A DNA stretch of 64,000 nucleotides from Salinicoccus halitifaciens (GTDB lineage Bacteria > Bacillota > Bacilli > Staphylococcales > Salinicoccaceae): NCBI RefSeq assembly GCF_021026095.1, contig NZ_JAJNCU010000003.1:124001-188000 (forward strand), in the 5' to 3' direction. Under the pieces are notes generated by a model, which saw nothing but the letters and a program-made list of their open reading frames with translations, was not told the origin of the DNA and did no database searches. Position 1 is the stretch's first letter; every line of letters starts with the position of its first letter. Of the stretch, positions 1 to 15,504 are shown one piece after another. The position numbers and the translations under genes were made by a program.

Positions 1-75
1 ATAATAATATAAAAATATATCGGTGGTTTCACTTTTCTCAGTTATTCTGAGGGTTTTCCCCTAACATCTTTATAT

Positions 76-987
76 TTAAATCTCATTTTCATCTTCCTGA
101 TCATACGGATCAACATGGACATGGACGTTTCTCACTATATCATGTTCGTTGATCAGCTTTTGTTTTACATTCCTCGTGATTCTGTGACTTTCTTCCACAG
201 TGGTGTTTGGTTCTACCGAGATATTCATTTCCACTACCACATAGGAGCCATGAGAACGTGCACGCAGGTCGTCAACTTGGATCACTTTGTCCACAGACGT
301 GGCTGTCTTCTTCATACCAGTCGTCTCTTCTTCATTCAAAACCACTTCCAAAGTTATACTCACTGCTTCTTTGGCCAGCTTGAAACCCATATACATTATG
401 AAGATTGCGATACCTGCACCTGCAATGGGGTCAAAAAGACTTAAATATGGTATACCGTAATGGGAACCGACTAATGCGAGACCGACACCGACCAGTGCAA
501 CAGCTGACGATATTGCATCCGAACGATGATGCCATGCATCTGCAATAAGTGCAGGACTGTTCAATTTGGTGCCTGCCCGGAACTTATATTGGAAAAGCAG
601 CTCTTTGACGATCAACCCCAGTATAATAATATAGAGCACCATCATTGAAGTGACTTCACTCGTCGTACCCGTCCAGATTGATTCAATGGAGGTATACCCA
701 ATTTCAAAGCCGATTATAATTAAAATAATAGCCACAATCAGTGTTACAACATTCTCTGATTTTCCGTGACCGTATGGATGCTCTTTGTCCGGTGGTTTCT
801 GAGCAGCTCTGAGACCGATCATTACAGCAATCGAACTTACTTGATCCGAGAGAGAATGTATAGCGTCTGCAATGAGCGCACGACTGTTGCCTGCAATTCC
901 GCCAATAAATTTAATGATGGTCATAATGATATTAACCACCATGCTGATTATTGTAATCTTCTGAGCCTTTTTGTATCTGTTAGTCAT
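76..987 (-). CDS. Cation diffusion facilitator (CDF) metal efflux protein, CzrB/FieF-like
   Basis: A 303-residue membrane protein that probably exports zinc or another divalent cation in exchange for protons. It has about six hydrophobic segments and two CDF metal-site motifs: ADAIHSLSDQ near residue 41 and ADAWHHRSDA near residue 149. The C-terminal cytoplasmic domain (about 215-300) carries the HVHVDP motif that binds regulatory metal in this family. The ATG is preceded by AGGAGG with a 9-base spacer. A TATGAA-N5-TTCATA dyad sits just upstream of that ribosome site. No ArsR/CzrA gene lies in the window, so zinc control is inferred. The family is certain; the metal is not. Confidence 0.9.
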   Translation of the reverse strand: MTNRYKKAQKITIISMVVNIIMTIIKFIGGIAGNSRALIADAIHSLSDQVSSIAVMIGLRAAQKPPDKEHPYGHGKSENVVTLIVAIILIIIGFEIGYTSIESIWTGTTSEVTSMMVLYIIILGLIVKELLFQYKFRAGTKLNSPALIADAWHHRSDAISSAVALVGVGLALVGSHYGIPYLSLFDPIAGAGIAIFIMYMGFKLAKEAVSITLEVVLNEEETTGMKKTATSVDKVIQVDDLRARSHGSYVVVEMNISVEPNTTVEESHRITRNVKQKLINEHDIVRNVHVHVDPYDQEDENEI

Positions 988-1002
988 TTATAGAGACCTC
1001 CT

Positions 1003-1019
1003 TATGAAAATAATTCATA
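1003..1019. promoter_or_regulatory. Inverted repeat, candidate ArsR/CzrA-type operator
   Basis: Perfect 6-bp arms TATGAA and TTCATA separated by 5 bases lie immediately upstream of the ribosome site of the CDF exporter. Staphylococcal CzrA operators contain a similar TATGAA...TTCATA core, so metal-responsive repression is plausible. The motif is short and the region AT-rich, so chance is possible. Confidence 0.35.
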
Positions 1020-1150
1020 GAATTTATAAACTTCCGGTACACTGCCATAATTGTGGAGATGATGTATAATTTCATTAATAATATTTTTTTAATAAACGGG
1101 ATATATCATCAACAATCAGAATCTTTTGTCATATCAACCCTCTTCTTTAA

Positions 1151-2350
1151 TTATGCATATGAATGAAGTCCTGCAACGATCAGATTGATTGCAATAAGGT
1201 TAAAGAGTATCAGTACGAAGCCGATTACTGCCAGCCATGCAGATTTCTCCCCTTCATATCCTCTGTTCAGTCTCAAATGTAAGAAAATAGTATAAAACAT
1301 AAATGTGATGAAGGCCCAGGTCTCCTTGGGGTCCCAGCCCCAGAATCTGCTCCAGGCAATCTGTGCCCAGATGGCCGCAAAAAAGATACCACCGAGTGCG
1401 AATAATGGGAAACCGATTATGACCGAACGGTAGCCGATTTCATCCATCAAGTTCAAGTCCGCTTTGTTTGCAAGCGGCTTAACCAATGCAGTCAGTCGTT
1501 TTCTTAAGATCAGAAGGAGTATGCCGTATACGATCAGACCAAGGATGACTGACCAGATTACTGTGTTCAATGATTGGGAATTGATTACAGGCGGCAAATT
1601 GATGCCGGTATGGAAATGATCCGCAGGTTCATATTGATTATCTCCGATATGTTCGACCGGTACTGCGTCTGCGTAGTTGATGAGACTTGGCAGATGGTAC
1701 TCTGCAATCATCGTTTCCCCGCGCTGACTGGTATACATGAACTCATCACTGTAACCGACTGCACCTTTCATGACCAGCGTCGTTCCGATATAAACCAGAA
1801 CGATCACTATACCCACCATGATCATCTCCAGAGTACGTGCCCGCCACGACTTCTCATTTTGTGGTATCGCTTTGAGCAGATAGATCAATCCTGCAACCGC
1901 ACTCATGGAAAGGATACCATAGGATATTGATACAGTAATCACATGAATTGCAAGCCAGTTACTCTGCAATGATGGAATCAAAGGATTGACAGCGGTAGAA
2001 AACAAACTGCCGTAAGCGATCAAAAGCAATGAAACGGGAATCGCAAACAACCCCAGGACTTTCGTTTTATAATAATGATATGTAATCAAATAACCTAAAA
2101 TAATCATGATTGAAAACGTTGCGATGAATTCATACATGTTGGATACCGGTGCTTGTTCAGTTGCAACCCATCTCAATATAAAATAGCCAATTTGCATAAG
2201 GAATGCTATGACAGTCATTAAAATGGCCAGTTTCTCAGATTTCTTCTTCTCTGTTTTCACACTGAGTGCAAGTGGCACCAATGCAATCAATAGAATGAAA
2301 AATGCGCCCGTAATCAGACCGTTACTTATCGATAAAAGTGTTGATTCCAT
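1151..2350 (-). CDS. resC: Cytochrome c biogenesis protein CcsA/ResC
   Basis: A 399-residue polytopic membrane protein of system II cytochrome c maturation. With ResB it exports haem and ligates it to apocytochrome c outside the membrane. The haem-handling tryptophan-rich motif is present near residue 340 (WGWDPKETWAF), with conserved histidines in flanking helices. It follows resB by 2 bases, so the two are translated as one unit. The start ATG has GAGGAG 9 bases upstream. A resDE two-component pair, often downstream in Bacillus, is absent here. Confidence 0.95.
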   Translation of the reverse strand: MESTLLSISNGLITGAFFILLIALVPLALSVKTEKKKSEKLAILMTVIAFLMQIGYFILRWVATEQAPVSNMYEFIATFSIMIILGYLITYHYYKTKVLGLFAIPVSLLLIAYGSLFSTAVNPLIPSLQSNWLAIHVITVSISYGILSMSAVAGLIYLLKAIPQNEKSWRARTLEMIMVGIVIVLVYIGTTLVMKGAVGYSDEFMYTSQRGETMIAEYHLPSLINYADAVPVEHIGDNQYEPADHFHTGINLPPVINSQSLNTVIWSVILGLIVYGILLLILRKRLTALVKPLANKADLNLMDEIGYRSVIIGFPLFALGGIFFAAIWAQIAWSRFWGWDPKETWAFITFMFYTIFLHLRLNRGYEGEKSAWLAVIGFVLILFNLIAINLIVAGLHSYA

Positions 2351-2352
2351 AA

Positions 2353-3996
2353 TTAATTCTCCTCATCAGTATTTACGCTGTCATTTTCATCTTTGCCGTC
2401 TCTGTCAAAAATGTGATTATAACCGTTTTCTTCCAACACTGGATTGATCTCTTTTTTCAAACCAAAATAGTTTTTATTTGTATGGGCACTGATATTGAAC
2501 CCATTTTCATCATTGATCCATATACGTCTATGGTTGATGTATGAGCCGATAAAGAGACCGATAAGAAAGATGACGAAACCTGTCGCTATAAGTGGCAGGG
2601 TCAAGTCTTTTTTCAATGTTAGAACGGTGGCCCAGTGATTTTCATTTTCAACGAACTTGACACTGTATTCATTGTCCGGGGTGATGTCGGTTGAGCTCAT
2701 GATTTGCAGCAGACTAAGTTCACTGGAAGTATCATCTGTCACCTCAAATATAAACGCTGGATTTACCGGCGTGGGTGTCTCAGAAATCAATGCGCCGTTT
2801 TCATCTATTTCCAGGAAGTCCGGTGCATAAGCGCGTACCTCCACAGCCAGCCCCTCACCTACCTCATAAGTGCTTTCGAGATTATCCAGAGCGACAGTGA
2901 ATCGATCGCCGACAGTTTCTCCGTTACTGTCTTCCAGCTGGAAAGTCATGGACTTCATCTGGGTGTTATCGTAACTCGACTGATACAGTTCAAACTGCTC
3001 AAACCGGTATGGATGGTTGACTTGGAGGCTGTAATCCTCGACCACTTCAAGGTCGGGGGACGCTCCGACGACATCTAAATTCTGATTCTCATAGAACGTG
3101 ATGTCCGTCTGGTAATTACTGACGATGGTTTCATTGGTGTTCTGGACGGTCTCATCAAATACTGTACCTTCCTCTTCATAAATATCCACTATGAAGTCAT
3201 TGTTCTCCACATAATACTGGCCTTCAGTCTCAGGAACCTGAACCGTATCACCTTCGGTGATATAGATGAGCTCATCCACATACATCCCGGGGAAAAACCG
3301 TAACATGCTGCCGGCCAGAAGGAGAATCAGTCCTGTGTGGTTTATGTATGGGCCCCATCTTGAAAGCCTGCCTTTCTCAAGAAGATGATGTTTATTGTCT
3401 GATTTGACTTTATAACCTTTTTTCTTCAGTCCTTCTATGACCCCATCAGTATTCTTCGTGTTTGCCTGCTGCAAGTTTAAGCGCTGCCTCTTGTAGAAAG
3501 TCGGATGCTTTTTGGCACGCTGGTTCTTTAAAGATTTATACAACGGCACACCTCTGTCAATACTTGCTGCAATCAACGACAGTGCCAGCATGCCGATCAG
3601 CACGATGAACCACCAGGAAGAGTAAAGATTATGGAAGCCAAGCTCATAATACAGCCTGCCCAATGTGCCGTAGTTCTCCGTATAATATTGCAGCGGATCC
3701 GCACCGACGGGTATAAAATACTCTTGCGGGAAGATCGTTCCGATGGAGGAAGCAATTGCGATGATAAGAATGATTGCCACCCCGACTTTTATGGAAGTGA
3801 AGAAAATCCAGATCTTATCAAAAATACTCTTTGATTTTGTCTTTGATCGGATGGCACTGCCGTCATAACGCATGAGGTCTTTTATTTTCTTTTTATCATA
3901 ATCACTGTTGATCATCTTTCCGCAAGACTGGCACAGCTGGGTGCCCGGCGGATTAACATGACCACAGGACCCGCATTTTATCTCTTTTAATTCCAC
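2353..3996 (-). CDS. resB: Cytochrome c biogenesis protein ResB with N-terminal zinc ribbon
   Basis: A 547-residue membrane partner of ResC in haem delivery to cytochrome c. It begins with a short zinc ribbon of two CxxC pairs (CGSCG and CQSCGK, about residues 8-26). Transmembrane helices follow near 65-90 and 125-150, then a large extracytoplasmic domain, and a last helix near residue 470. The start is GTG with AGGGTGA upstream. It lies 11 bases after resA. The zinc ribbon is an addition seen in many Bacillota ResB proteins; its role is unknown. Confidence 0.93.
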   Translation of the reverse strand: MELKEIKCGSCGHVNPPGTQLCQSCGKMINSDYDKKKIKDLMRYDGSAIRSKTKSKSIFDKIWIFFTSIKVGVAIILIIAIASSIGTIFPQEYFIPVGADPLQYYTENYGTLGRLYYELGFHNLYSSWWFIVLIGMLALSLIAASIDRGVPLYKSLKNQRAKKHPTFYKRQRLNLQQANTKNTDGVIEGLKKKGYKVKSDNKHHLLEKGRLSRWGPYINHTGLILLLAGSMLRFFPGMYVDELIYITEGDTVQVPETEGQYYVENNDFIVDIYEEEGTVFDETVQNTNETIVSNYQTDITFYENQNLDVVGASPDLEVVEDYSLQVNHPYRFEQFELYQSSYDNTQMKSMTFQLEDSNGETVGDRFTVALDNLESTYEVGEGLAVEVRAYAPDFLEIDENGALISETPTPVNPAFIFEVTDDTSSELSLLQIMSSTDITPDNEYSVKFVENENHWATVLTLKKDLTLPLIATGFVIFLIGLFIGSYINHRRIWINDENGFNISAHTNKNYFGLKKEINPVLEENGYNHIFDRDGKDENDSVNTDEEN

Positions 3997-4007
3997 AACA
4001 CTTCACC

Positions 4008-4541
4008 CTATTCCGAAGTTGCAAGTTCCACAAAACGATAAATATCATCTATGGAAAGCTGATATTCCTGTTTATCAACGACCACTCCATTTTTATCGAT
4101 GGCAATCGTCGTCGGCAACGGTCCGATCTGATACGCTTTAGTCACATCCCGGTTACGGTCGAGCGCAATTGGATATGATAGTTCATCATCAAGACTCGCT
4201 AGAAATTGATTGATCTGCTGCTCGCCTTCAGATACGTTCACAGCGATCAGCTCATAGTCGTCATGCCCTTCATTATAAACTTCATTCATATCCGGCATTT
4301 CCTCGCGGCAGGGTTCACACCATGTACCCCAGAAGTTCAGGATGACACCTTTATCTTCATTGATGTCCGACAGTTGTACAGTCCCCCCGTCGAGTGTTTC
4401 GAGCTGGAAATCGACTGCTTCATCACCGACTTGTATTGCCTGTATATCCGAAGTTAAATTGAACCATAAAGTCACACCAACCAAAATGACAATACTTGAT
4501 ATGATAGTGATCCTGAGTATATTTCTTGTTTGCTTTTTCAT
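4008..4541 (-). CDS. resA: Thiol-disulfide oxidoreductase ResA
   Basis: A membrane-anchored thioredoxin-fold protein that reduces the apocytochrome c CxxCH cysteines before haem attachment. After one N-terminal hydrophobic anchor it has an AhpC/TSA-type fold with active site WCEPC (about residues 90-94). The family's conserved cis-proline is seen in GPLPTT. The reading frame could open at a GTG 9 bases upstream, but the AGGTG ribosome site is spaced for the ATG used here. First gene of the resA-resB-resC operon. Confidence 0.93.
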   Translation of the reverse strand: MKKQTRNILRITIISSIVILVGVTLWFNLTSDIQAIQVGDEAVDFQLETLDGGTVQLSDINEDKGVILNFWGTWCEPCREEMPDMNEVYNEGHDDYELIAVNVSEGEQQINQFLASLDDELSYPIALDRNRDVTKAYQIGPLPTTIAIDKNGVVVDKQEYQLSIDDIYRFVELATSE

Positions 4542-4999
4542 ATATTTCACCTACTTCACATTTTCCTATATATCATTCATAGTTAAATAGATCTTCACTA
4601 TCCCTGATTTCCCTTAACAACTTCTATGTCTACTTTAGAAAAACCTCCTAAATTAAATATTGTGTAATTCTGATATTGATATGGCAAAAATTGTTCAGAC
4701 CATAACATTAGATGATTATATAGTATATTTCTGCAGAAATTATCCAGATGCTCGGAAGTGAAGAAATAGTAGCCTACTTTAAAAACAGTTGATCTAATCC
4801 TTCATTGAAATTTAGTTAAGTTTTAGGTCTTTCAAACAGGTATTACTTCTTTCGAAAATGGAGAAATATTCTCAAGAGTTTTCCTTAGGGATTAACTTCC
4901 TCTTTAGTCATATTAAATACTTATTTTATGCATAATTTCTCGAAAATTTTAATCTAGCATGATACATGGCAAGTTTCTTGCAAAAGTCTAAAGAAGGAG
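4542..4999. other. AT-rich intergenic region upstream of the multicopper oxidase
   Basis: No convincing gene. A 26-codon open frame starts at 4681 but has no ribosome site and matches nothing I know. A small dyad (GCAAG-TTT-CTTGC, 4969-4981) lies 27 bases before the oxidase start. This stretch marks the change from the resABC operon to the much more AT-rich copper region, so an island boundary may lie here. I could not find a repeat of the guaA 3' end in it. Confidence 0.4.
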
Positions 5000-5008
5000 T
5001 TGTGTAAT

Positions 5009-6550
5009 ATGAGGAGAAATAAATTTTTAATCAGCATGTTTTTTCTAGCAGTAGTTGCTTTATTATCAGCTTGTACAAACAATGCTGGAGAAGCATCTGC
5101 AGAAAACGAAGGAATGAATATGGAAGGACACGATGAAAGTTCCATGGATGAAAGTATGGACGATCATTCCATGGAAGAGGAAATGGAGGACGAGTCTATG
5201 GATGGGCATATGGATCATGATAATGTGGTAAGTCTGAATGATTCGACAGGAGAGAATGAACTGGGCATCCCACCTTTACTACAAAGTGAAAGTGACGCAG
5301 AAACCGAGTATACAATACGCGCTCAAAAAGGGGAAACAGAAATATTTGACGGTGTTCAAACGAAAACATATGGCTATAATAGTTCATTTCTTGGCCCAAT
5401 GCTCCAATTTGAAAAAGGAGAGACAGTGACTATAAACTTAATCAATGAACTTGATGAAAATACCACTTTTCACTGGCATGGACTGGAAGTGGCGGGAAGT
5501 GAAGATGGCGGACCACACGAAGTATTGGAACCGGGCGATGAAGATACCATTCAATTTGAGGTAACACAGGAAGCTGCAACTTTATGGTTCCACCCCCACC
5601 CGGAGGGAGACACCTCTGAACAAGTATACAATGGTCTTGCCGGCTTAATATACATCGAAGATCAAAATTCAAAAAATCTTGAATTACCAAGTGATTATGG
5701 AAAAAATGATATTCCACTTGTTTTCCAGGACAAAATATTTGATGATGAAAAACAATTGAACTATGAAGCAGCGGCAAATGAAGACGGCACAGTTGGCGAT
5801 ACATCGTTAATTAACGGCACGTTGAACCCAAAATTGACTGTAGATAAAGAAAAAGTAAGGCTTCGACTGTTAAATGGCTCGAATGCAAGAAACTATACCT
5901 TTAAATTGAATACGGAAGATGATTTTGTACAAGTTGCAACGGACGGTGGCTTCTTGAATGAACCGGTCTCAATGAATGAGTTAACGCTCACACCTTCAGA
6001 AAGGGCTGAAGTAATTATTGATTTTTCAAAAATGGACAGTGATGAAAATATAGCTTTGATAAATGAAGATGGTGCTACGCTCCTGCCTTTTGAAATTACA
6101 GATCAAACAGGTAAAAATACAGAGATACCTGATGAAATGAATGACTTTTCAGTCACAGAAGAAGAAAAGAGCTTGCCGGTGACAAAAGAAATCGAACTGT
6201 TCGGAATGATGGACATGGTGACGATAAATGGTAAAAAGTTTGACCCTGAAAGAATTGACTTCACTCAGGAACAAGGTGTTACGGAAGTATGGGAAATCTA
6301 TAATAAACCTGATATGATGGGCGGGATGATTCATCCATTCCATATCCACGGGGCTCAATTTAAAATCCTTTCAAGAAACGGAGAGACACCACCCAAGAAT
6401 GAAAGAGGTTGGAAAGACAGTTTTTCCATCGCCCCGGATGAGACTGTAAAAATCGCCATTCAATTTAAAAATAAAGGCGTATATATGTTCCACTGTCACA
6501 TCCTTGAACATGAAGACAATGGGATGATGGGACAGGTCAAGGTAGAGTAA
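5009..6550 (+). CDS. Lipoprotein multicopper oxidase with Met/His/Asp-rich N-terminus
   Basis: A CueO/Mco-type laccase-like oxidase, probably oxidising Cu(I) outside the membrane. A lipoprotein signal ends in LSAC near residue 22. A roughly 45-residue segment rich in Met, His, Asp and Glu follows and may bind copper. All four copper-ligand motifs are present: HWHG (about 154), HPHP (about 195), HPFHIHG (about 442) and HCHILEH (about 495) with an axial Met. A TTG start 9 bases upstream overlaps the ribosome site AAGGAG, so the ATG at 5009 is preferred. It is convergent with the copA/copZ pair. Confidence 0.93.
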   Translation: MRRNKFLISMFFLAVVALLSACTNNAGEASAENEGMNMEGHDESSMDESMDDHSMEEEMEDESMDGHMDHDNVVSLNDSTGENELGIPPLLQSESDAETEYTIRAQKGETEIFDGVQTKTYGYNSSFLGPMLQFEKGETVTINLINELDENTTFHWHGLEVAGSEDGGPHEVLEPGDEDTIQFEVTQEAATLWFHPHPEGDTSEQVYNGLAGLIYIEDQNSKNLELPSDYGKNDIPLVFQDKIFDDEKQLNYEAAANEDGTVGDTSLINGTLNPKLTVDKEKVRLRLLNGSNARNYTFKLNTEDDFVQVATDGGFLNEPVSMNELTLTPSERAEVIIDFSKMDSDENIALINEDGATLLPFEITDQTGKNTEIPDEMNDFSVTEEEKSLPVTKEIELFGMMDMVTINGKKFDPERIDFTQEQGVTEVWEIYNKPDMMGGMIHPFHIHGAQFKILSRNGETPPKNERGWKDSFSIAPDETVKIAIQFKNKGVYMFHCHILEHEDNGMMGQVKVE

Positions 6551-6584
6551 AATCGAATATTTCAAATAAATGAATAAAGATCAT

Positions 6585-6617
6585 AAAAAATTCAGGAAGT
6601 GACTTCCTGAATTTTTT
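6585..6617 (+). terminator. Rho-independent terminator after the multicopper oxidase
   Basis: A 14-bp stem (AAAATTCAGGAAGT with its complement) has a very small loop and ends in a T run. It starts about 35 bases after the oxidase stop codon. Confidence 0.85.
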
Positions 6618-6705
6618 ATAGCTCATATGGAGTTATAAAAATGAAATTGGATTCGACTGCATAGTGGCAATATGTTCCAAACGTTCTACGCCTATTCAAA
6701 CTAAA

Positions 6706-6753
6706 ACCTCCCAAGTTCAAAGATCATCTCTTTCCTGTGTGAACTTGGGAGGT
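6706..6753 (-). terminator. Hairpin, probable terminator of the copA-copZ transcript
   Basis: Perfect 14-bp arms (ACCTCCCAAGTTCA and its complement) with a 20-base loop. Read on the minus strand it is followed by TTTTAGTTT and lies about 70 bases after the copZ stop. The long loop and weak T run make the call less certain; it could instead be the end of a lost mobile element. Confidence 0.55.
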
Positions 6754-6824
6754 GCTACTTTATATAGTAATGTCTTTTCTATTTTTTATTTTACCTGGTG
6801 TAAGATGGCTCCAACTCTTTTGGA

Positions 6825-7073
6825 TTAGTGACAACATGAGCAACTGTTGCCCGCCTTTTCAGATTCATCCATAACCTTGTAACCTGTATCTTCAATAGTA
6901 CTTTTAATTTCTTCTAATTTAACATCATTGTCATTATATGACACATCAACTTTTCCATCTGAAAGCAGCACTTTTACTGATTCAACTCCACTAATCTTGC
7001 TGACGTTCCCTTCAACTTTATTAGCACATCCACCACATGACATTCCTTGGACATTTAATGTTTTTTGTTGCAT
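6825..7073 (-). CDS. copZ: Copper chaperone CopZ
   Basis: An 82-residue heavy-metal-associated (HMA) protein that carries Cu(I) in the cytoplasm to the CopA ATPase or to a regulator. The metal site GMSCGGC lies at residues 10-16. The frame is open further upstream, but AGGAGG is spaced 7 bases from this ATG and only 1 base from the one two codons earlier. The C-terminus ends in an extra Cys/His cluster (CSCCH) not found in standard CopZ, which may bind additional copper. It lies 221 bases downstream of copA. Confidence 0.93.
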   Translation of the reverse strand: MQQKTLNVQGMSCGGCANKVEGNVSKISGVESVKVLLSDGKVDVSYNDNDVKLEEIKSTIEDTGYKVMDESEKAGNSCSCCH

Positions 7074-7120
7074 ATACATTCCTCCTTTTAATTTTCTATT
7101 AATGTAACACACTTTGTGCC

Positions 7121-7132
7121 TTACCGCGGTAA
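7121..7132. promoter_or_regulatory. 12-bp perfect palindrome between copA and copZ
   Basis: TTACCGCGGTAA is a perfect, GC-centred palindrome in an otherwise AT-rich gap, about 50 bases upstream of copZ. It is not a CopY box (TACANNTGTA) and not an obvious CsoR site. A regulatory role is a guess from symmetry and position. Confidence 0.25.
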
Positions 7133-7294
7133 AGTATTCAAATGTTAGAATAATGATTATTTTGCTGAACTTACAGAGCCACCCCCTTACAATCATTTAA
7201 GATTCATTTCATGGCAGAGAATCTGTTGAAATATGAGTACATGGTTCTCTTATATAATTCAAGTTAAAATTTATCTATCACTCCACTTTATCCT

Positions 7295-9802
7295 TCATTG
7301 AGCAACAGACGGGCCAACAGAAGGACCAACAGACGAATCATCAGACGAATCAACAGACGGTTTAAATCGTTTTAAACGCAGTGCATTGAGTAACACGGAT
7401 ATCGAGCTGAAACTCATCGCTGCTGCTGCAAACATCGGGCTCATCAGTGGCCCGCCGAATAGGAACAGAAGACCCATTGCAACTGGTATACCCGCTGTAT
7501 TATAAGCAAATGCCCAGAACAAGTTTTGTCTGATATTTCTGATGGTGGACTTGCTTAGTTCTACTGCAGTCGGAACTTCCATTAAATCACTTCTCATGAG
7601 AACAATGTCAGCAGATTCCATAGCTACATCCGTACCGGAGCCAATGGCAATGCCCACATCTGCCTGAGCAAGAGCTGGTGCATCATTGATTCCATCTCCC
7701 ACCATGGCTACTTTTTTACCTTCATCCTGAAGTTTTTCCACTTCACTTGCTTTATCTTCCGGCAACACTTCACTCATGACCCGGTCAATCCCGACTTGCT
7801 TGGCAATTGCTTCCGCAGTCCGCTTGTTATCACCAGTTATCATTGCCACTTCTATGCCCATCTCATGCAGTTTTTGAATCGCTTTTAAGCTGCTTTCTTT
7901 TACCGTATCTGCAACTGCAATAATCCCGGCAATTTCACTATTGATTGCTATATACATGGGTGTTTTCCCTTGATTCGCTAATTCATCTGAAGTGCTTGCC
8001 AGTGCTCCTAAAGCAATGTTTTGATCATCCATCAATTTCCTATTACCCAGTAACATATTTTTATCGTCAACCATCACTTCAATGCCGTGACCTGTTATTG
8101 CATTGAAATTTTTGGTTTTTTGTAAAGCTAAACCTTTATCTTCGGCACCATTGACTATTGCTTCACCAAGAGGATGTTCCGAACCTTTTTCAGCGGATGC
8201 AGCCAACATCAATAATTCATTCTCTGAAATCCCCTTAGCAGTAATAATATCAGTGACTTTAGGTTCCCCTTCTGTAATTGTTCCTGTTTTATCAAAAACT
8301 ATCGTTTGAAGTTTATGCGTGGTTTCAAGGGCAACACCGCTTTTAATTAATATACCATTTTCAGCGCCCTTACCTGTTCCAATCATAATGGAGGTCGGAG
8401 TCGCTAAACCAAGTGCACATGGACATGCGATAACCAACGTGGTGATGAAAACAGTTAAAGCAAAGAGTACTGACTGTCCACTTATAAACCATGCCAACCC
8501 TGCAAGGATGGCAAGTCCAATGACAATTGGCACAAAGTATCCAGAAATAATATCAACCAGCTTTGAAATAGGTGCTTTTGAACCTTGTGCATCTTCTACC
8601 AGCTTTATAATTTGAGACAATGCAGTGTCTTTTCCGACCTTAGTCGCTTCATACTGAATTGATCCATTTTTATTGATACTCGCTCCAATGATATTATCTC
8701 CACTGGTTTTTTCTACTGGAATACTTTCACCTGTCAACATGGATTCATCCACTGCAGTCATACCTTCAGTAACAACACCGTCAACAGGCATTTTTTCTCC
8801 TGGTTTAACAATGATTGTGTCACCAACCACCACTTCATCAATTGATATTTCTATTTCCTGTCCATTTCTTACTACAATCGCACTCTTAGGTGCGAGTCCC
8901 ATTAGCTTCTTGATCGCATCTGAAGTCTTTCCTTTAGTTAAAGTTTCCAAATACTTACCTAATGTAATCAAAGTTAAAATTACTGCTGCCGTTTCAAAAT
9001 ATAAATCATTTGCAAAACTCACATCACCGGAAAAGATCATAATTGCTGCAAAGATACCGTACACGAATGCTGCACCAGTACCGACAGCAATTAAAGAATC
9101 CATATTTGGATGTCCGCGAAATAATGTTTTAATACCTGATGAATAAATGCTTCTAGCCATATAGACTACAGGTAAAGTTAGTATGAGTTGTATCATCACA
9201 AACCCTACTGGATTGATTGCCGGGTCAATAATTTCAGGTAATGGTGCGCCTATCAGATGGCCCATCGCAATGTATAATAGAGGTGCAGTAAATATCGCGG
9301 ATATCAAAAATCTTTGCCAAAGACCTTTTATAGCTTGCTGTTTTTTATTACGATCTTCATCAACAGATTCTGATGAAGATATATCTTCATGGGCTTCATA
9401 ACCTGCATTTGATACTGCATCCAGAATATCTGAAACTGAAGCCACGGATGGATCATACTCAATATTCATTTTTTCTGTAGCTAAGTTAACGTGGGTATCC
9501 AACACGCCATCAAGTTTTCCTGTGGCCTTTTCAATGGTTTGAACACATGATGCACATGTCATCCCCTCTATCTTAAATGATTTTTGTTCTGTATCTGTTA
9601 AAGCCTTATACCCGGCCTTTCCAACTGCATCTTGGATTTCCTGTACAGAGAGTGCATTTTCGTCGAAACTGATATTCAGTTTTTCAGTAGCCATATTCAC
9701 GTTTGATTCTTTAACACCTGGCAACTTCTTGGTCGCTTTTTCGACTGTTTGTACGCATGATGCACAGGACATACCTTCTATATTAAATGATTTTGTTACC
9801 AT
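7295..9802 (-). CDS. copA: Copper-exporting P1B-type ATPase CopA with two HMA domains
   Basis: An 835-residue Cu(I) export pump. Two N-terminal HMA domains carry GMSCASC (about residue 10) and GMTCASC (about 79). Eight membrane helices follow. TGES marks the actuator domain, CPC the transport site (about 460), DKTGT the phosphorylated aspartate (about 502), then HP and GDGINDAP of the ATP-binding region. The C-terminus has a short Ser/Gly/Pro repeat. The ATG has AGGAG 10 bases upstream. The gene directly follows a decayed copZ copy in a former copY-copZ-copA-copZ operon. Confidence 0.97.
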   Translation of the reverse strand: MVTKSFNIEGMSCASCVQTVEKATKKLPGVKESNVNMATEKLNISFDENALSVQEIQDAVGKAGYKALTDTEQKSFKIEGMTCASCVQTIEKATGKLDGVLDTHVNLATEKMNIEYDPSVASVSDILDAVSNAGYEAHEDISSSESVDEDRNKKQQAIKGLWQRFLISAIFTAPLLYIAMGHLIGAPLPEIIDPAINPVGFVMIQLILTLPVVYMARSIYSSGIKTLFRGHPNMDSLIAVGTGAAFVYGIFAAIMIFSGDVSFANDLYFETAAVILTLITLGKYLETLTKGKTSDAIKKLMGLAPKSAIVVRNGQEIEISIDEVVVGDTIIVKPGEKMPVDGVVTEGMTAVDESMLTGESIPVEKTSGDNIIGASINKNGSIQYEATKVGKDTALSQIIKLVEDAQGSKAPISKLVDIISGYFVPIVIGLAILAGLAWFISGQSVLFALTVFITTLVIACPCALGLATPTSIMIGTGKGAENGILIKSGVALETTHKLQTIVFDKTGTITEGEPKVTDIITAKGISENELLMLAASAEKGSEHPLGEAIVNGAEDKGLALQKTKNFNAITGHGIEVMVDDKNMLLGNRKLMDDQNIALGALASTSDELANQGKTPMYIAINSEIAGIIAVADTVKESSLKAIQKLHEMGIEVAMITGDNKRTAEAIAKQVGIDRVMSEVLPEDKASEVEKLQDEGKKVAMVGDGINDAPALAQADVGIAIGSGTDVAMESADIVLMRSDLMEVPTAVELSKSTIRNIRQNLFWAFAYNTAGIPVAMGLLFLFGGPLMSPMFAAAAMSFSSISVLLNALRLKRFKPSVDSSDDSSVGPSVGPSVAQ

Positions 9803-9820
9803 TTATTATCAACTCCTTTT

Positions 9821-10045
9821 CTAATTGATTGATTCAGCTTCATAACCAATCTTCTTTATAGATTCCCTTAAACTATCTACTTGCCCGGACGGTTTCATCA
9901 AATTTAACTCTGGCTATTCCTTTTTTCAAATTGACTCTTGCATTTTCCACATCTTGCAAGCTTAGCAATGTCTCTTCAATTTTATTCACGTAGTGAGCAC
10001 AGTTCATTCCCGTAATCTTTAAAGTCCCTATTCCATAATTCTCAT
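9821..10045 (-). pseudogene. Decayed copZ paralogue
   Basis: Conceptual translation gives most of an HMA domain, with GMNCAHY in place of GMxCxxC, followed by a typical beta-alpha-beta body (INKIEETLL-like helix, ARVKFDE). A stop then interrupts it, and the end (SLRESIKKIGYEAES) is in another frame. The N-terminal ATG (10045, with AAAGGA upstream) is also out of frame with the body. So it has at least two frameshifts and has lost the second metal cysteine. It sits between the copY remnant and copA, where a working chaperone gene would be expected. Confidence 0.8.
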
Positions 10046-10051
10046 TCCTTT

Positions 10052-10374
10052 CTAAATATTTAAAATTAATTTTTCTATTGTCTTACCAGCATCCCCGTTA
10101 AAAATATTAGAGAAACTTTCATCCAAACTACTTTTCATAAATTCATTTTTCTTTATATTAGAGAAATAAGTATACTTTACTCTTCTTTTTCTGTACAAAG
10201 CATTCCTTTTTTAACAAGGCTTCCGATAAACGTTTTGATTGTTGCCGGTTTCCATTTTTTCTTCTGCTGTTAAACTTCTACAATATCATTGCTTATAACA
10301 TTGCTCTGCACTCAAACAACACGCATTACTTCCCATTCGAAATCGGTAATCTTAGAATCTATTTCAGAATGCAT
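10052..10374 (-). pseudogene. Decayed copY (CopY/BlaI-family copper repressor)
   Basis: From the ATG at 10374 (AGGAAG upstream) the frame reads ITDFEWEVMRVV, a stop, a short stretch, another stop, then KKWKPATIKTFIGSLVKKG and TEKE. This is the winged-helix core of CopY-type repressors. After a frameshift it continues with KYTYFSNIKKNEFMKSSLD and GKTIEKLI, as in the C-terminal half of the family. At least two in-frame stops and one frameshift rule out a functional repressor. The Cys-rich copper-sensing tail is absent. It is followed at once by the copZ remnant and copA. Confidence 0.85.
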
Positions 10375-10395
10375 AATCTTCCTATCTACTTTGTT

Positions 10396-10437
10396 TACAT
10401 TTGTAATCTATTTATATACATTTAGTTTACAACCGTA
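10396..10437. promoter_or_regulatory. Paired CopY operator boxes upstream of the copper operon
   Basis: TACATTTGTA at 10396-10405 matches the cop box consensus TACANNTGTA exactly. TACAACCGTA at 10428-10437 differs by one base. They are spaced 32 bases, about three helical turns, which is typical of paired CopY operators. They lie just upstream of the copY remnant start, so they mark the promoter of the copY-copZ-copA-copZ transcript. Confidence 0.65.
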
Positions 10438-10510
10438 ATCATAATTTGTCAAGATTTTTTCTATAATTCCTTCTCCTATCAATTGCTTACATTATTAACG
10501 ATAATATAGC

Positions 10511-10581
10511 GGTAGTAACCGGAATCGAACACGGCGATCAAGGCTTCGCAGACCTTTGCCTTAGTTCTTGGCTACACAGCC
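10511..10581 (-). pseudogene. tRNA-Cys-like pseudo-tRNA
   Basis: On the minus strand 71 bases align by eye with Bacillota tRNA-Cys: the D-arm TAGCCAAG...AAGGC, the anticodon arm AAGGT-CTGCGAA-GCCTT with a 7-base loop, a 5-base variable loop and TTCGATT in the T loop. The anticodon would be GCG instead of GCA. The T stem and two acceptor pairs are mismatched and no CCA is encoded, so it is probably not a working tRNA. It lies between the copper promoter and the integrase scar, which fits an imported tRNA copy. Confidence 0.6.
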
Positions 10582-10618
10582 ATGAATTTAAACTAAATAT
10601 TTAAGTGGATATAAGCAA

Positions 10619-10672
10619 AATGGATTAGTTGATTCATTTCAAATGGTTTCAAATGGAATCAACTAATCCATT
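10619..10672. terminator. Strong 17-bp hairpin in the copper island
   Basis: Perfect 17-bp arms (AATGGATTAGTTGATTC and complement) with a 20-base loop, followed by CATTTTTATTT on the plus strand. It could be a terminator or the remains of a mobile-element end. No gene immediately upstream on the plus strand needs it. Confidence 0.45.
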
Positions 10673-11299
10673 CATTTTTATTTATATGAATAGGACTGTG
10701 TTAGTCATTTCTTATACTATGGATTAGATTAGAATAAGCCTTCTGTTATGACATAAATTAAGAAACAATCGAAGAGTTTATTTTTATATACAATGTTTTA
10801 AAATTTAAAATATAGGGAAATCTATTTAATAAGTAAATAATTGTAAATTAATAGAGCTTGAAGCCCAGTGGGAGAGAGTAATCAAGCTAATGTTTTTAGA
10901 GGTGATAAAATTAATTCATTTAAATAAATTCAGGTAAATAATAAAGGATGAAAATAAAATGAAAAAATTATAAGTGAGGGGGGACTAATAGCCCTCTGAT
11001 ACATAATTATTGCTACATAGCGTCAAAATTATTCTGTTAATTCTTTATAAGATTAAAGCTGATTCTATTGTTACTTTAAGTACTTTGAATATAGCAATAA
11101 TATTAAACGATATTGATTCAACCTTATATTTTTCACTCATGATATTAAGGGTCGGAAATAAATTCAGCTGTTTATTCTTCAGCTGGGTTTATTTTTTTCT
11201 GAAAAAAATCTTTAAAATCTTTGGCAATTTTGAAGTTTCTCCCGTTGAAGGATATGAAAGGAGAAATCATCGCCCACCTTTGCAGTATTGCGAAGGGAG
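10673..11299. other. AT-rich gap with a second hairpin, no gene
   Basis: No supported gene. A 97-codon frame at 11010-11303 has no ribosome site and biased, low-complexity composition. A terminator-like hairpin lies at 11157-11199 (TCAGCTG...CAGCTG arms within flanking AAATAAA/TTTATTT, then a T run). It suggests that a transcript once ended before the sigma/integrase scar. Confidence 0.4.
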
Positions 11300-12109
11300 A
11301 TGACACGCATGATAGAATCCGATCGTACCGAATGGCAAATACGCTGTGCGTTTAATGCGTTCTGTAAACGGGTGTTAAAGAGTGCCACCATTGATATCTA
11401 CAATGAGCGGCGCCATCAACAGTCTAAAGAGATGACGTTTTCTGATTTAACACCTCAAGAAGCTCATCAGCTGTACTCCGTCGATCACTATAGTGAAGAC
11501 AATACAGAAAAGTTTCAACTTGCAGACAAGAGAATTACGACACATTTGCTTGCAGAAGCGATGCATACATTGCCAGAAGAAAAGCGCAATACAGTCCTCT
11601 TATACTATTTCCTACAACTATCTGATCAGGAAATTAGTGAACAGCTTAAGGTGCCACGTAGCACTGTACAATATCGACGGGCGAGCGCTTTAGACTCAGA
11701 TACATTACGTTTATTACAAGAATGGCAGGCTGTCCAGGAGAACCAATGTAAGACGCATTTCATTTTATCGTATAACGGCATGCCCACTCAAAAACATACC
11801 ATATCCTATGCGATCACTCGCTTTGCCAAGGCTGCAAATATCCATCGCATCAAAATTCATGGACTCAGACATTCCCATGCTTCTTTGTTAATTAGTATGG
11901 GGGAAAATCCTTTGGTGATTAAAGACAGACTGGGACATGAAGATATACAAACGACTTTAGGTACTTACGGCCACCTCTATCCAAACAGTAATTTTCAAGT
12001 TGCCGATAGATTAAGCAGTCTTGTTCAACTAAAAACAAGTGAGCATACCCAAATCGAACATTACAGCAGCAACCAATTTGTAAACACGACTTTTCAAAGT
12101 GTGCCATAA
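11300..12109 (+). pseudogene. Chimera of a Tn916 Orf7-like sigma factor and the C-terminus of a tyrosine integrase
   Basis: The first roughly 125 residues resemble the sigma-like regulator Orf7 of Tn916-family elements, including LLAEAMHTLPEEKR and the region-4 helix-turn-helix DQEISEQLKVPRSTVQYRR. The remaining roughly 135 residues are the catalytic C-terminus of a phage/ICE tyrosine recombinase: HGLRHSHASLL, GHEDIQTTLGTYGH and the nucleophile Tyr. The integrase N-terminal and first-Arg regions are missing. In such elements orf7, orf8, xis and int lie in that order, so an internal deletion fused the outer genes in frame. The start is uncertain (ATG 11300 or 11309). Integrase activity is not expected. 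Confidence 0.75.
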
Positions 12110-12131
12110 CTGTGCCACAGAAAATATAAAA

Positions 12132-12167
12132 GCCCTAAAAACCCAGTGTTACCAAGGCTTTTAGGGC
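12132..12167. terminator. Terminator between guaA and the integrase scar
   Basis: Arms GCCCTAAAA and TTTTAGGGC with a loop of about 18 bases, lying 9 bases past the guaA stop codon. On the minus strand it is followed by TTTTATATTTT, so it mainly serves guaA. Confidence 0.65.
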
Positions 12168-12175
12168 ACCTAATA

Positions 12176-13720
12176 CTATTCCCACTCGATCGTCGCTGGT
12201 GGTTTGTTCGTTATATCATATACGACTCTGTTGACGTGGTTGGATTCATTCACGATCCGTTTCGAAATCCTGTTCAGCACTTCCCAGTCGATCCTCGCGA
12301 ATTCGCTGGTCATGCCGTCGACGCTGGTCACGGCCCGGATGCCGATCGTGTAGTCATACGTCCGGTAGTCGCCCATGACGCCGACGGAGCGGATGTCCGG
12401 GAGTACGGTGAAGTACTGCCAGATTTCACGCTCGAGGCCCGCTTTCCTGATTTCATCCCGCAGGATCCAGTCGGTTTCCCTTACGATTTCAAGTTTTTCC
12501 TCGGTGATTTCACCCAGTATCCTGATGCCGAGCCCAGGTCCCGGGAACGGCTGTCTCCATACGAGGTGTTCTGCGATGCCGAGTTCGATGCCGAGCAGAC
12601 GCACTTCGTCCTTGAATAAAGTGTTCAGCGGCTCGATGAGTTCGAACTCCATATCTTCAGGGAGACCGCCGACGTTATGGTGGGATTTGATCGTCGTCGC
12701 CGTTTCGGTGCCGGACTCGATGATATCCGTGTACAGCGTACCTTGTGCAAGGAAGTCGACTTCTGTCAGCTTCGCCGCTTCATCGTTGAATACGTAAATG
12801 AATTCATTGCCGATGATCTTGCGTTTCTGCTCAGGATCGGAAACGCCCTTCAGCTTTTCCATGAAACGGTCTTTGGCATCGATTTTGATGATGTTCATAT
12901 TGAAGCCTTCACCGAACTGCTCCATCACCATCTCGCCCTCGCCTTTACGCAGAAGGCCGTGGTCAACGAAGATGCACGTCAGCTGATCGCCGATCGCTTT
13001 GTGCAGGAGCACTGCAGTGACGGATGAGTCCACGCCGCCGCTCATCGCACACAGGACTTTCCGGTCACCGACCTGTTCGCGGATCTTCTCGACTTCAATG
13101 TCGATGAAGTTCTCCATCGTCCATTCGCCTGTACATCCTGAGATGTTCCTGATGAAGTTCTTCAGGAATGTATCACCGTTCAGGGAATGTTTGGATTCCG
13201 GGTGGAACTGTACACCGTACAGCGGTTTCTCATCGTGTCCAATTGCTGCATACTCGCAGTTTTCGGTATGCGCGATTTTACGGAAGCCTTCCGGTATCCG
13301 GGTCACTTTATCGCTGTGGCTCATCAGCATGATTTCATGCGTGTTCAGCCCTTTGAAGATTTCTTCTGCCGGGTCCAGGGTGAGGTCCGTTGCACCGAAC
13401 TCCCTGCCCGGGGAAGATACGACTTCCCCGCCGAGGGTGTCGACCATCAGCTGCATGCCGTAGCAGATGCCGAGGACCGGGACGCCGAGGTTGAAGACCT
13501 CCGGATCCACTTTGTAGGCATCGTCGTTGTAGACGCTCTTCGGCCCGCCGGAAAGGATGATGCCTTTCGGATTGAGTTCTTTGATTTCTTCTATTAAAAT
13601 GCTCGGATTGTGCAGTTCGCTGTATACGCCAAGGTCACGGATCCTCCGCGTGATCAGCTGGTTGAACTGGCTTCCAAAATCTATTACTAAAATAAGTTCC
13701 TGTTCTTTTGCCATATCCAT
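12176..13720 (-). CDS. guaA: GMP synthase (glutamine-hydrolysing)
   Basis: Converts XMP to GMP using glutamine and ATP. The 514-residue protein has a class I amidotransferase domain (catalytic Cys in GICYGMQLM, about 88; the His/Glu pair in HPE), then an ATP pyrophosphatase domain with SGGVDSS (about 231), and a dimerisation domain ending in PPATIEWE. It lies 17 bases downstream of guaB and shares its riboswitch-controlled transcript. The 3' end of guaA is a known hotspot for genomic islands, and an integrase remnant lies 67 bases beyond it. Confidence 0.98.
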
Positions 13721-13737
13721 TTATAAAAAACTCCTGT

Positions 13738-15285
<1,548 letters not shown>

Positions 15286-15358
15286 TTATCTCATAGTAGG
15301 TTTTTTTAAGGAAAACCCTAGAAACTCACAATCCATATTATTGTGATTATATGAAATA
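15286..15358 (-). ncRNA. Guanine (purine) riboswitch aptamer in the guaB leader
   Basis: On the minus strand the purine aptamer elements appear in order: CATATAATC closing P1, the P2 arms CACAAT/ATTGTG around AATATGG, the junction AGTTTCTA, the P3 arms GGGTTT/AAAAACC, and ACTATGAG completing P1. The specificity position in ACTATG is C, the guanine class. A hairpin (AACAATTAA...TTTAATTGTT) directly downstream may be the expression platform, though no T run follows it. It lies about 80 bases before guaB. Confidence 0.85.
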
Positions 15359-15504
15359 AATAATTACTTATGATAACAAAAATCATGATGGTATACAACT
15401 TTATTGTACATGATTATAGTACAAATATCTCCCTTGTGAAATGAGTAAAATTCGAGGGGCGGGGGTAGATACATAATAATACATTAATGACCGGAGGCAT
15501 CGAT

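Follow-up and report, generated by a model that had tools for sequence, protein, structure and literature searches.

A copY Pseudogene in an Acquired Copper Operon of Salinicoccus halitifaciens and the Probable Control of the Operon by a Paralogous CopY

An acquired copper operon of Salinicoccus halitifaciens retains open copA and copZ genes behind a promoter with paired cop boxes, and its own copY and an additional, first copZ are pseudogenes. It is proposed that these two genes decayed neutrally because both were redundant in the cell, that the boxes still work, and that a paralogous CopY encoded elsewhere in the genome probably represses the orphan operon in trans. Positions without a contig label refer to the window, which is the whole stretch of 64,000 nucleotides that was analyzed (Table 1).

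Table 1. Features of the orphan copper operon, its host element, and the intact copY loci.
Feature	Position	Strand	Remarks
copY pseudogene	10052..10374	-	2 stops, -1 frameshift, C-terminal ~45 codons with Cys copper site deleted
copZ pseudogene (first copZ)	9821..10036	-	two frameshifts; Cys to Tyr in MxCxxC
copA, P1B-1 copper ATPase, 835 aa	7295..9802	-	open; two HMA domains
second copZ, 82 aa, HMA domain	6825..7073	-	open; extra C-terminal CSCCH
sigma-A-type promoter TTGACA-17-TAAACT	10424..10452	-	layout as in intact copY promoters
cop box 1, TACGGTTGTA	10428..10437	-	overlaps -10
cop box 2, TACAAATGTA	10396..10405	-	16-mer GATTACAAATGTAAAC at 10393-10408
attachment core ACTATTCCCACTC	12174..12188	.	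guaA 3′ end; other copy C5:108870-108884
sigma-70 region 4 ORF fused to C-terminal half of tyrosine integrase	11288..12109	+	ICE deletion scar
multicopper oxidase	5000..6550	+	island cargo
intact CopY, 149 aa	C5:115937-116278 (Pfam match coordinates)		next to copB
intact CopY, 149 aa	C11:27050-27391 (Pfam match coordinates)		next to copB

The Orphan Operon and Its Relatives

From 10452 down to 6825 on the minus strand, the operon consists of the promoter, box 1, box 2, the dead copY, the dead copZ, copA, and the second copZ. CopA holds every P1B-1 motif sought, namely HMA domains with CxxC, CPC, DKTGT, TGES, SEHPL, and GDGIND. A preliminary description of this DNA had recognized a former copY-copZ-copA-copZ operon whose copA and second copZ were intact, and both points are borne out by the open frames and by homologous operons in other Firmicutes, such as that of Paraliobacillus (L040), which is intact, has the identical gene order, and encodes a CopA 80% identical to the one described here.

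Among the CopY/TcrY operons compared (L040, L143/L144, the copB-copY-copA-copZ operon of Lacicoccus L042, and, by literature, the cop operon of E. hirae), the promoter layout and the paired boxes are shared, and CopA is 77-80% identical in these relatives. The orphan operon differs from them in carrying both copY and the first copZ as pseudogenes, whereas L143 is without the first copZ, of which apparently only the tail is left as a matching stretch between copY and copA. These gene orders are taken to confirm copY-copZ-copA-copZ as the ancestral arrangement. Since L143 and L144/L145 both have the order copY-copA-copZ, with the tail remnant persisting in L143, the first copZ was probably lost at least twice. 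A csoR gene precedes copZ-copA-copZ in Bacillus sp. L039, and the regulator of such an operon is therefore exchangeable.

Two further occurrences of the operon were noted. Contig C11 of genome G100 (L144, L145) carries the same copY-copA-copZ operon twice, about 17 kb apart on a contig of 33.8 kb. A Firmicute-like copY-copA-copZ is also found on a 12.8-kb scaffold of a Bacteroidota assembly (Segetibacter koreensis DSM 18137, L043), where the copY divergence figures are the same as those of L143; contamination or recent transfer is the likely origin. Within the orphan operon itself, a perfect 12-bp palindrome, TTACCGCGGTAA, lies about 50 bp upstream of the second copZ (7121-7132) and is possibly an operator of its own.

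Decay of copY and the First copZ

When aligned to intact CopY proteins with frameshifts allowed, the dead copY has its first stop (TGA, 10314-10312) where Trp is invariant and its second, TAA, at positions 10272-10270; its frame shifts by -1 near 10178. The remnant matches PF03965 (Penicillinase_R, the BlaI/MecI-type winged helix) over positions 1-59 (E=1e-12) with the stops inside, and its reading ends in LILNI followed by a stop; the C-terminal ~45 codons, including the CxC...CxC copper/zinc site, are missing. With neither the open frame nor the C-terminal CxC...CxC site of CopY/TcrY proteins, the dead copY is a pseudogene and not a working member of that family. Across 12 intact CopY proteins, 34 columns are invariant; 10 of these are absent from the remnant, and 4 of those still present are altered, namely the Trp replaced by a stop and the changes R to S, G to E, and C to F. 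Translation of the first copZ from its ATG ends after two codons, a +1 shift occurs near 9880, and the metal motif reads MNCAHY in place of MxCxxC. At least two stops and a frameshift in copY, and two frameshifts and a lost cysteine in copZ, had been described from the sequence, and alignment upholds each of them; the C-terminal loss with the copper-sensing cysteines had been missed, and the earlier account of the damage was slightly too mild.

The nearest matches, at 74-75% DNA identity, are L143 and L144/L145, in which copY is intact, and the same pseudogene occurs in no other genome among 157 of the order. Compared with L143 and L144, the dead copY has diverged by 0.14-0.17, 0.20-0.21, and 0.37 at the first, second, and third codon positions, which gives a ratio of positions 1+2 to position 3 of 0.46-0.51. 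For intact CopY pairs whose third positions have diverged to a similar or larger extent, the ratio is 0.28-0.36; this contrast rests on the nearer relatives, since in comparisons with the more distant L040 even intact genes reach ~0.5. If copA had been damaged as densely as its two dead neighbors, 22-27 lesions would be expected in it; it has 0, and its dN/dS relative to the homologs is 0.06-0.08, a rough value with synonymous sites near saturation; this pattern points to strong purifying selection on copA. Thus, the codon-position ratios, lesion counts, and dN/dS argue that copY is under little or no constraint and that copA is constrained.

The Promoter and Its Operators

The cop operator consensus is RNYKACANNYGTMRNY, with two sites 24-39 bp apart (PMC7253601). 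Box 2 fits this 16-base consensus on both strands and box 1 on one, where the opposite-strand 16-mer (10425-10440), GTTTACAACCGTAATC, matches RNYKACANNYGTMRNY; box 1 is one base off the classic TACANNTGTA. The two boxes are 32 bp apart from start to start, and the claim of one perfect and one near-perfect box at this distance holds. The 10-base cop box alone is uninformative, with 25 genome sites against 67 for a reversed control; the analysis relied on the 16-mer and on the paired pattern. In the 2.68-Mb genome, paired boxes are confined to three places, each of them a copY locus, and are therefore not a product of chance.

The significance implied earlier for the survival of the operators is not supported. 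Over ~28 key promoter and operator bases, about 3 neutral changes are expected since the death of copY and about 1 is seen, a nonsignificant difference (P about 0.2) with an expectation that is rough, having been calculated by hand from a pseudogene divergence of ~10% inferred from the codon-position excess. Operator persistence was accordingly rejected as proof of selection. The spacing of 32 bp was likewise rejected as a sign of decay, as intact relatives have 27-32 bp, and imperfect boxes adjoin intact copY genes in L043, L143, and L144.

Just upstream of the promoter, a tRNA-like sequence (10510-10581, minus strand; Rfam 33.5 bits) is the weakest of 57 Rfam tRNA matches in the genome and is not called by ARAGORN. 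No close match to it was found among 30 retrieved genomic tRNA loci, in an alignment that is gap-heavy and makes poor evidence, and it is probably a decayed tRNA gene. A 17-bp perfect inverted repeat with a 20-nt loop, AATGGATTAGTTGATTC, follows at 10619-10672 and is perhaps the terminator of a lost gene.

A Degraded Element at guaA

The operon lies inside an element of ~27.3 kb bounded by the attachment cores ACTATTCCCACTC, and a second end sequence, GTGTGCCAxxACTGTGCCACAGA, is common to both ends. Tn916-family genes are present as orf23/22 (DUF961), FtsK, and TcpC homologs, with integrase sequence at the 3′ end of guaA. Neither a complete conjugation module nor an intact integrase was found in the element; the sigma::integrase fusion of Table 1 and an FtsK::lysozyme/CHAP fusion (L005:795-2498) are present instead. 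Tn5801 is located at guaA (PMC4844618), and Tn5801-like ICEs likewise combine Tn916-family genes, an integrase next to the guaA 3′ end, and a short direct-repeat core at the ends (PMC4844618). The element described here differs in that copper cargo replaces tet(M) and the conjugation genes are mostly deleted, leaving the two fusion ORFs. Judged by its genes and ends, it is a degraded Tn5801-like ICE. The cargo is largely devoted to copper and redox functions, with copY-copB, a DUF326 Cys-rich protein, a two-component system, DUF1541, CueP, a DsbD/CcdA-like protein, a ResA-like thioredoxin, the multicopper oxidase, cation efflux, and copA-copZ. The loss of function in copY and copZ is in keeping with an immobile element being pruned to what the cell still uses, and a causal link between the two may be surmised. 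Outside the operon, a purine riboswitch (70.8 bits; 15274-15374, minus strand) lies just upstream of guaB-guaA on the same strand.

Probable Control by a Paralogous CopY

A search of the genome for another CopY or CsoR, as had been recommended, found two intact CopY proteins (C5 and C11) and one CsoR (C6). Both CopY proteins have an open frame, the winged helix, and the full CxCxxxxCxC motif, and their loci have paired cop boxes upstream and a His-rich copB downstream. The C5 copY is 18 kb from the orphan operon, inside the same 27-kb element. The 16-mer of orphan box 2 equals the C5 copY promoter box (C5:116344-116359) letter for letter, and these two form the identical pair among the 12 sites of this 16-mer form listed in the genome. 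The C5 copY promoter is likewise TTGACA-17-TAAACT with a box on the -10. The recognition-helix region, ATIKTFIG(R)LVKKGML, hardly differs between the dead and C5 proteins. Arguing against control by these paralogs, the C5 and C11 proteins share only ~60% identity with the dead CopY over the aligned part, and certain pairs of CopY and operator fail in vitro, as does CopY of S. pneumoniae on the distal site of E. hirae (PMC7253601).

In the proposed mechanism, neutral decay would have deprived the copper-resistance cargo operon of the Tn5801-like ICE of its own repressor and its first chaperone, leaving the promoter and cop boxes functional. CopY made 18 kb away in the same element would bind the orphan boxes in trans, and the C11 CopY would probably bind them too. 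Without copper, Zn-CopY on the -10 box and the downstream box would block transcription; Cu(I) would free Zn-CopY from the DNA, and copA and the second copZ would then be made from a message preceded by the abortively translated leader of the dead copY-copZ. CopY proteins often bind operators across species, each box independently and without cooperativity (PMC7253601), and it is from the sequences of repressors and operators that we infer CopY binding and copper-responsive repression in trans. A precedent is the L. lactis CopR regulon, in which one CopY-family repressor controls distant genes and several promoters (PMC7253601). The orphan operon differs from the targets described there in being a formerly autonomous copY operon, and action in trans is here a prediction.

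Loss of the repressor had been taken to predict either constitutive copper export or control by a CopY or CsoR encoded elsewhere, and only the CopY part of this prediction is favored by the present results. It is unlikely, though worth weighing, that the operon is constitutive or strongly leaky, with boxes so poorly recognized that copA is always on from an intact strong promoter. The local copY is dead, the promoter is near consensus, and box 1, which sits on the -10, carries a substitution that may make repression leaky. However, imperfect boxes also occur in operons with an intact copY, and a paralogous CopY acting in trans is the likelier of the two because of the intact CopY pair and the identical operator 16-mer.

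Transfer of the operon to CsoR, as in the Bacillus sp. homolog L039, is very improbable. The core csoR-copA-copZ operon on C6 encodes a CsoR carrying the C-H-C signature, L039 demonstrates regulator exchange at this type of operon, and in S. aureus a chromosomal CsoR governs acquired copB genes (PMC6191537). Yet no CsoR-type TACCC...GGGTA site is present in window positions 1-14000, whereas such sites occur upstream of the C6 csoR (ATACCCTATGGGGGTAT) and the C5 copB, and CsoR control of the orphan operon was rejected on this ground. A CstR-like gene on C5 is without the His ligand. The resemblance to S. aureus, where acquired copB-mco genes also answer to a repressor encoded elsewhere (PMC6191537), extends to the arrangement, whereas the family concerned here is CopY with its cop boxes.

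That an assembly or sequencing error mimics a broken copY, for which the comparison of a single genome of the species leaves some room, is hardly credible in view of the two substitution stops, the indels in two genes, the ~130-base C-terminal loss, the changed invariant residues, the relaxed codon pattern, and the open downstream ORFs; a single sequencing error is ruled out by the number, independence, and variety of the lesions.

Implications for Copper Regulation

Control of the orphan operon by a paralogous CopY would be nothing categorically new, as ordinary decay of a redundant local repressor with a backup is a well-supported account of the locus. It offers a clear natural case in which a local repressor becomes dispensable once paralogs with the same operator are present in the genome, and it shows a route by which acquired metal-resistance operons lose their autonomy and join the regulon of a sibling. 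It also advises caution, in that a broken adjacent repressor gene does not amount to constitutive expression until the rest of the genome has been checked.

Between copY and copB, CsoR-type sites (ATACCCCGTGAGGGTAT; ATACCCTTACCAGGTAT) are found at L005:5803-5818 (C5:~115.8 kb) and near L006 ~4900 (C11). With the cop boxes upstream of copY, dual CopY/CsoR wiring of the acquired copB genes is possible. A more tentative suggestion, given less than even odds, is that the copper regulons of this element are merging, the C5 CopY having taken over a formerly autonomous operon and the exporters having become wired to two repressor families. If true, acquired exporters would answer to the CopY and CsoR families at once.
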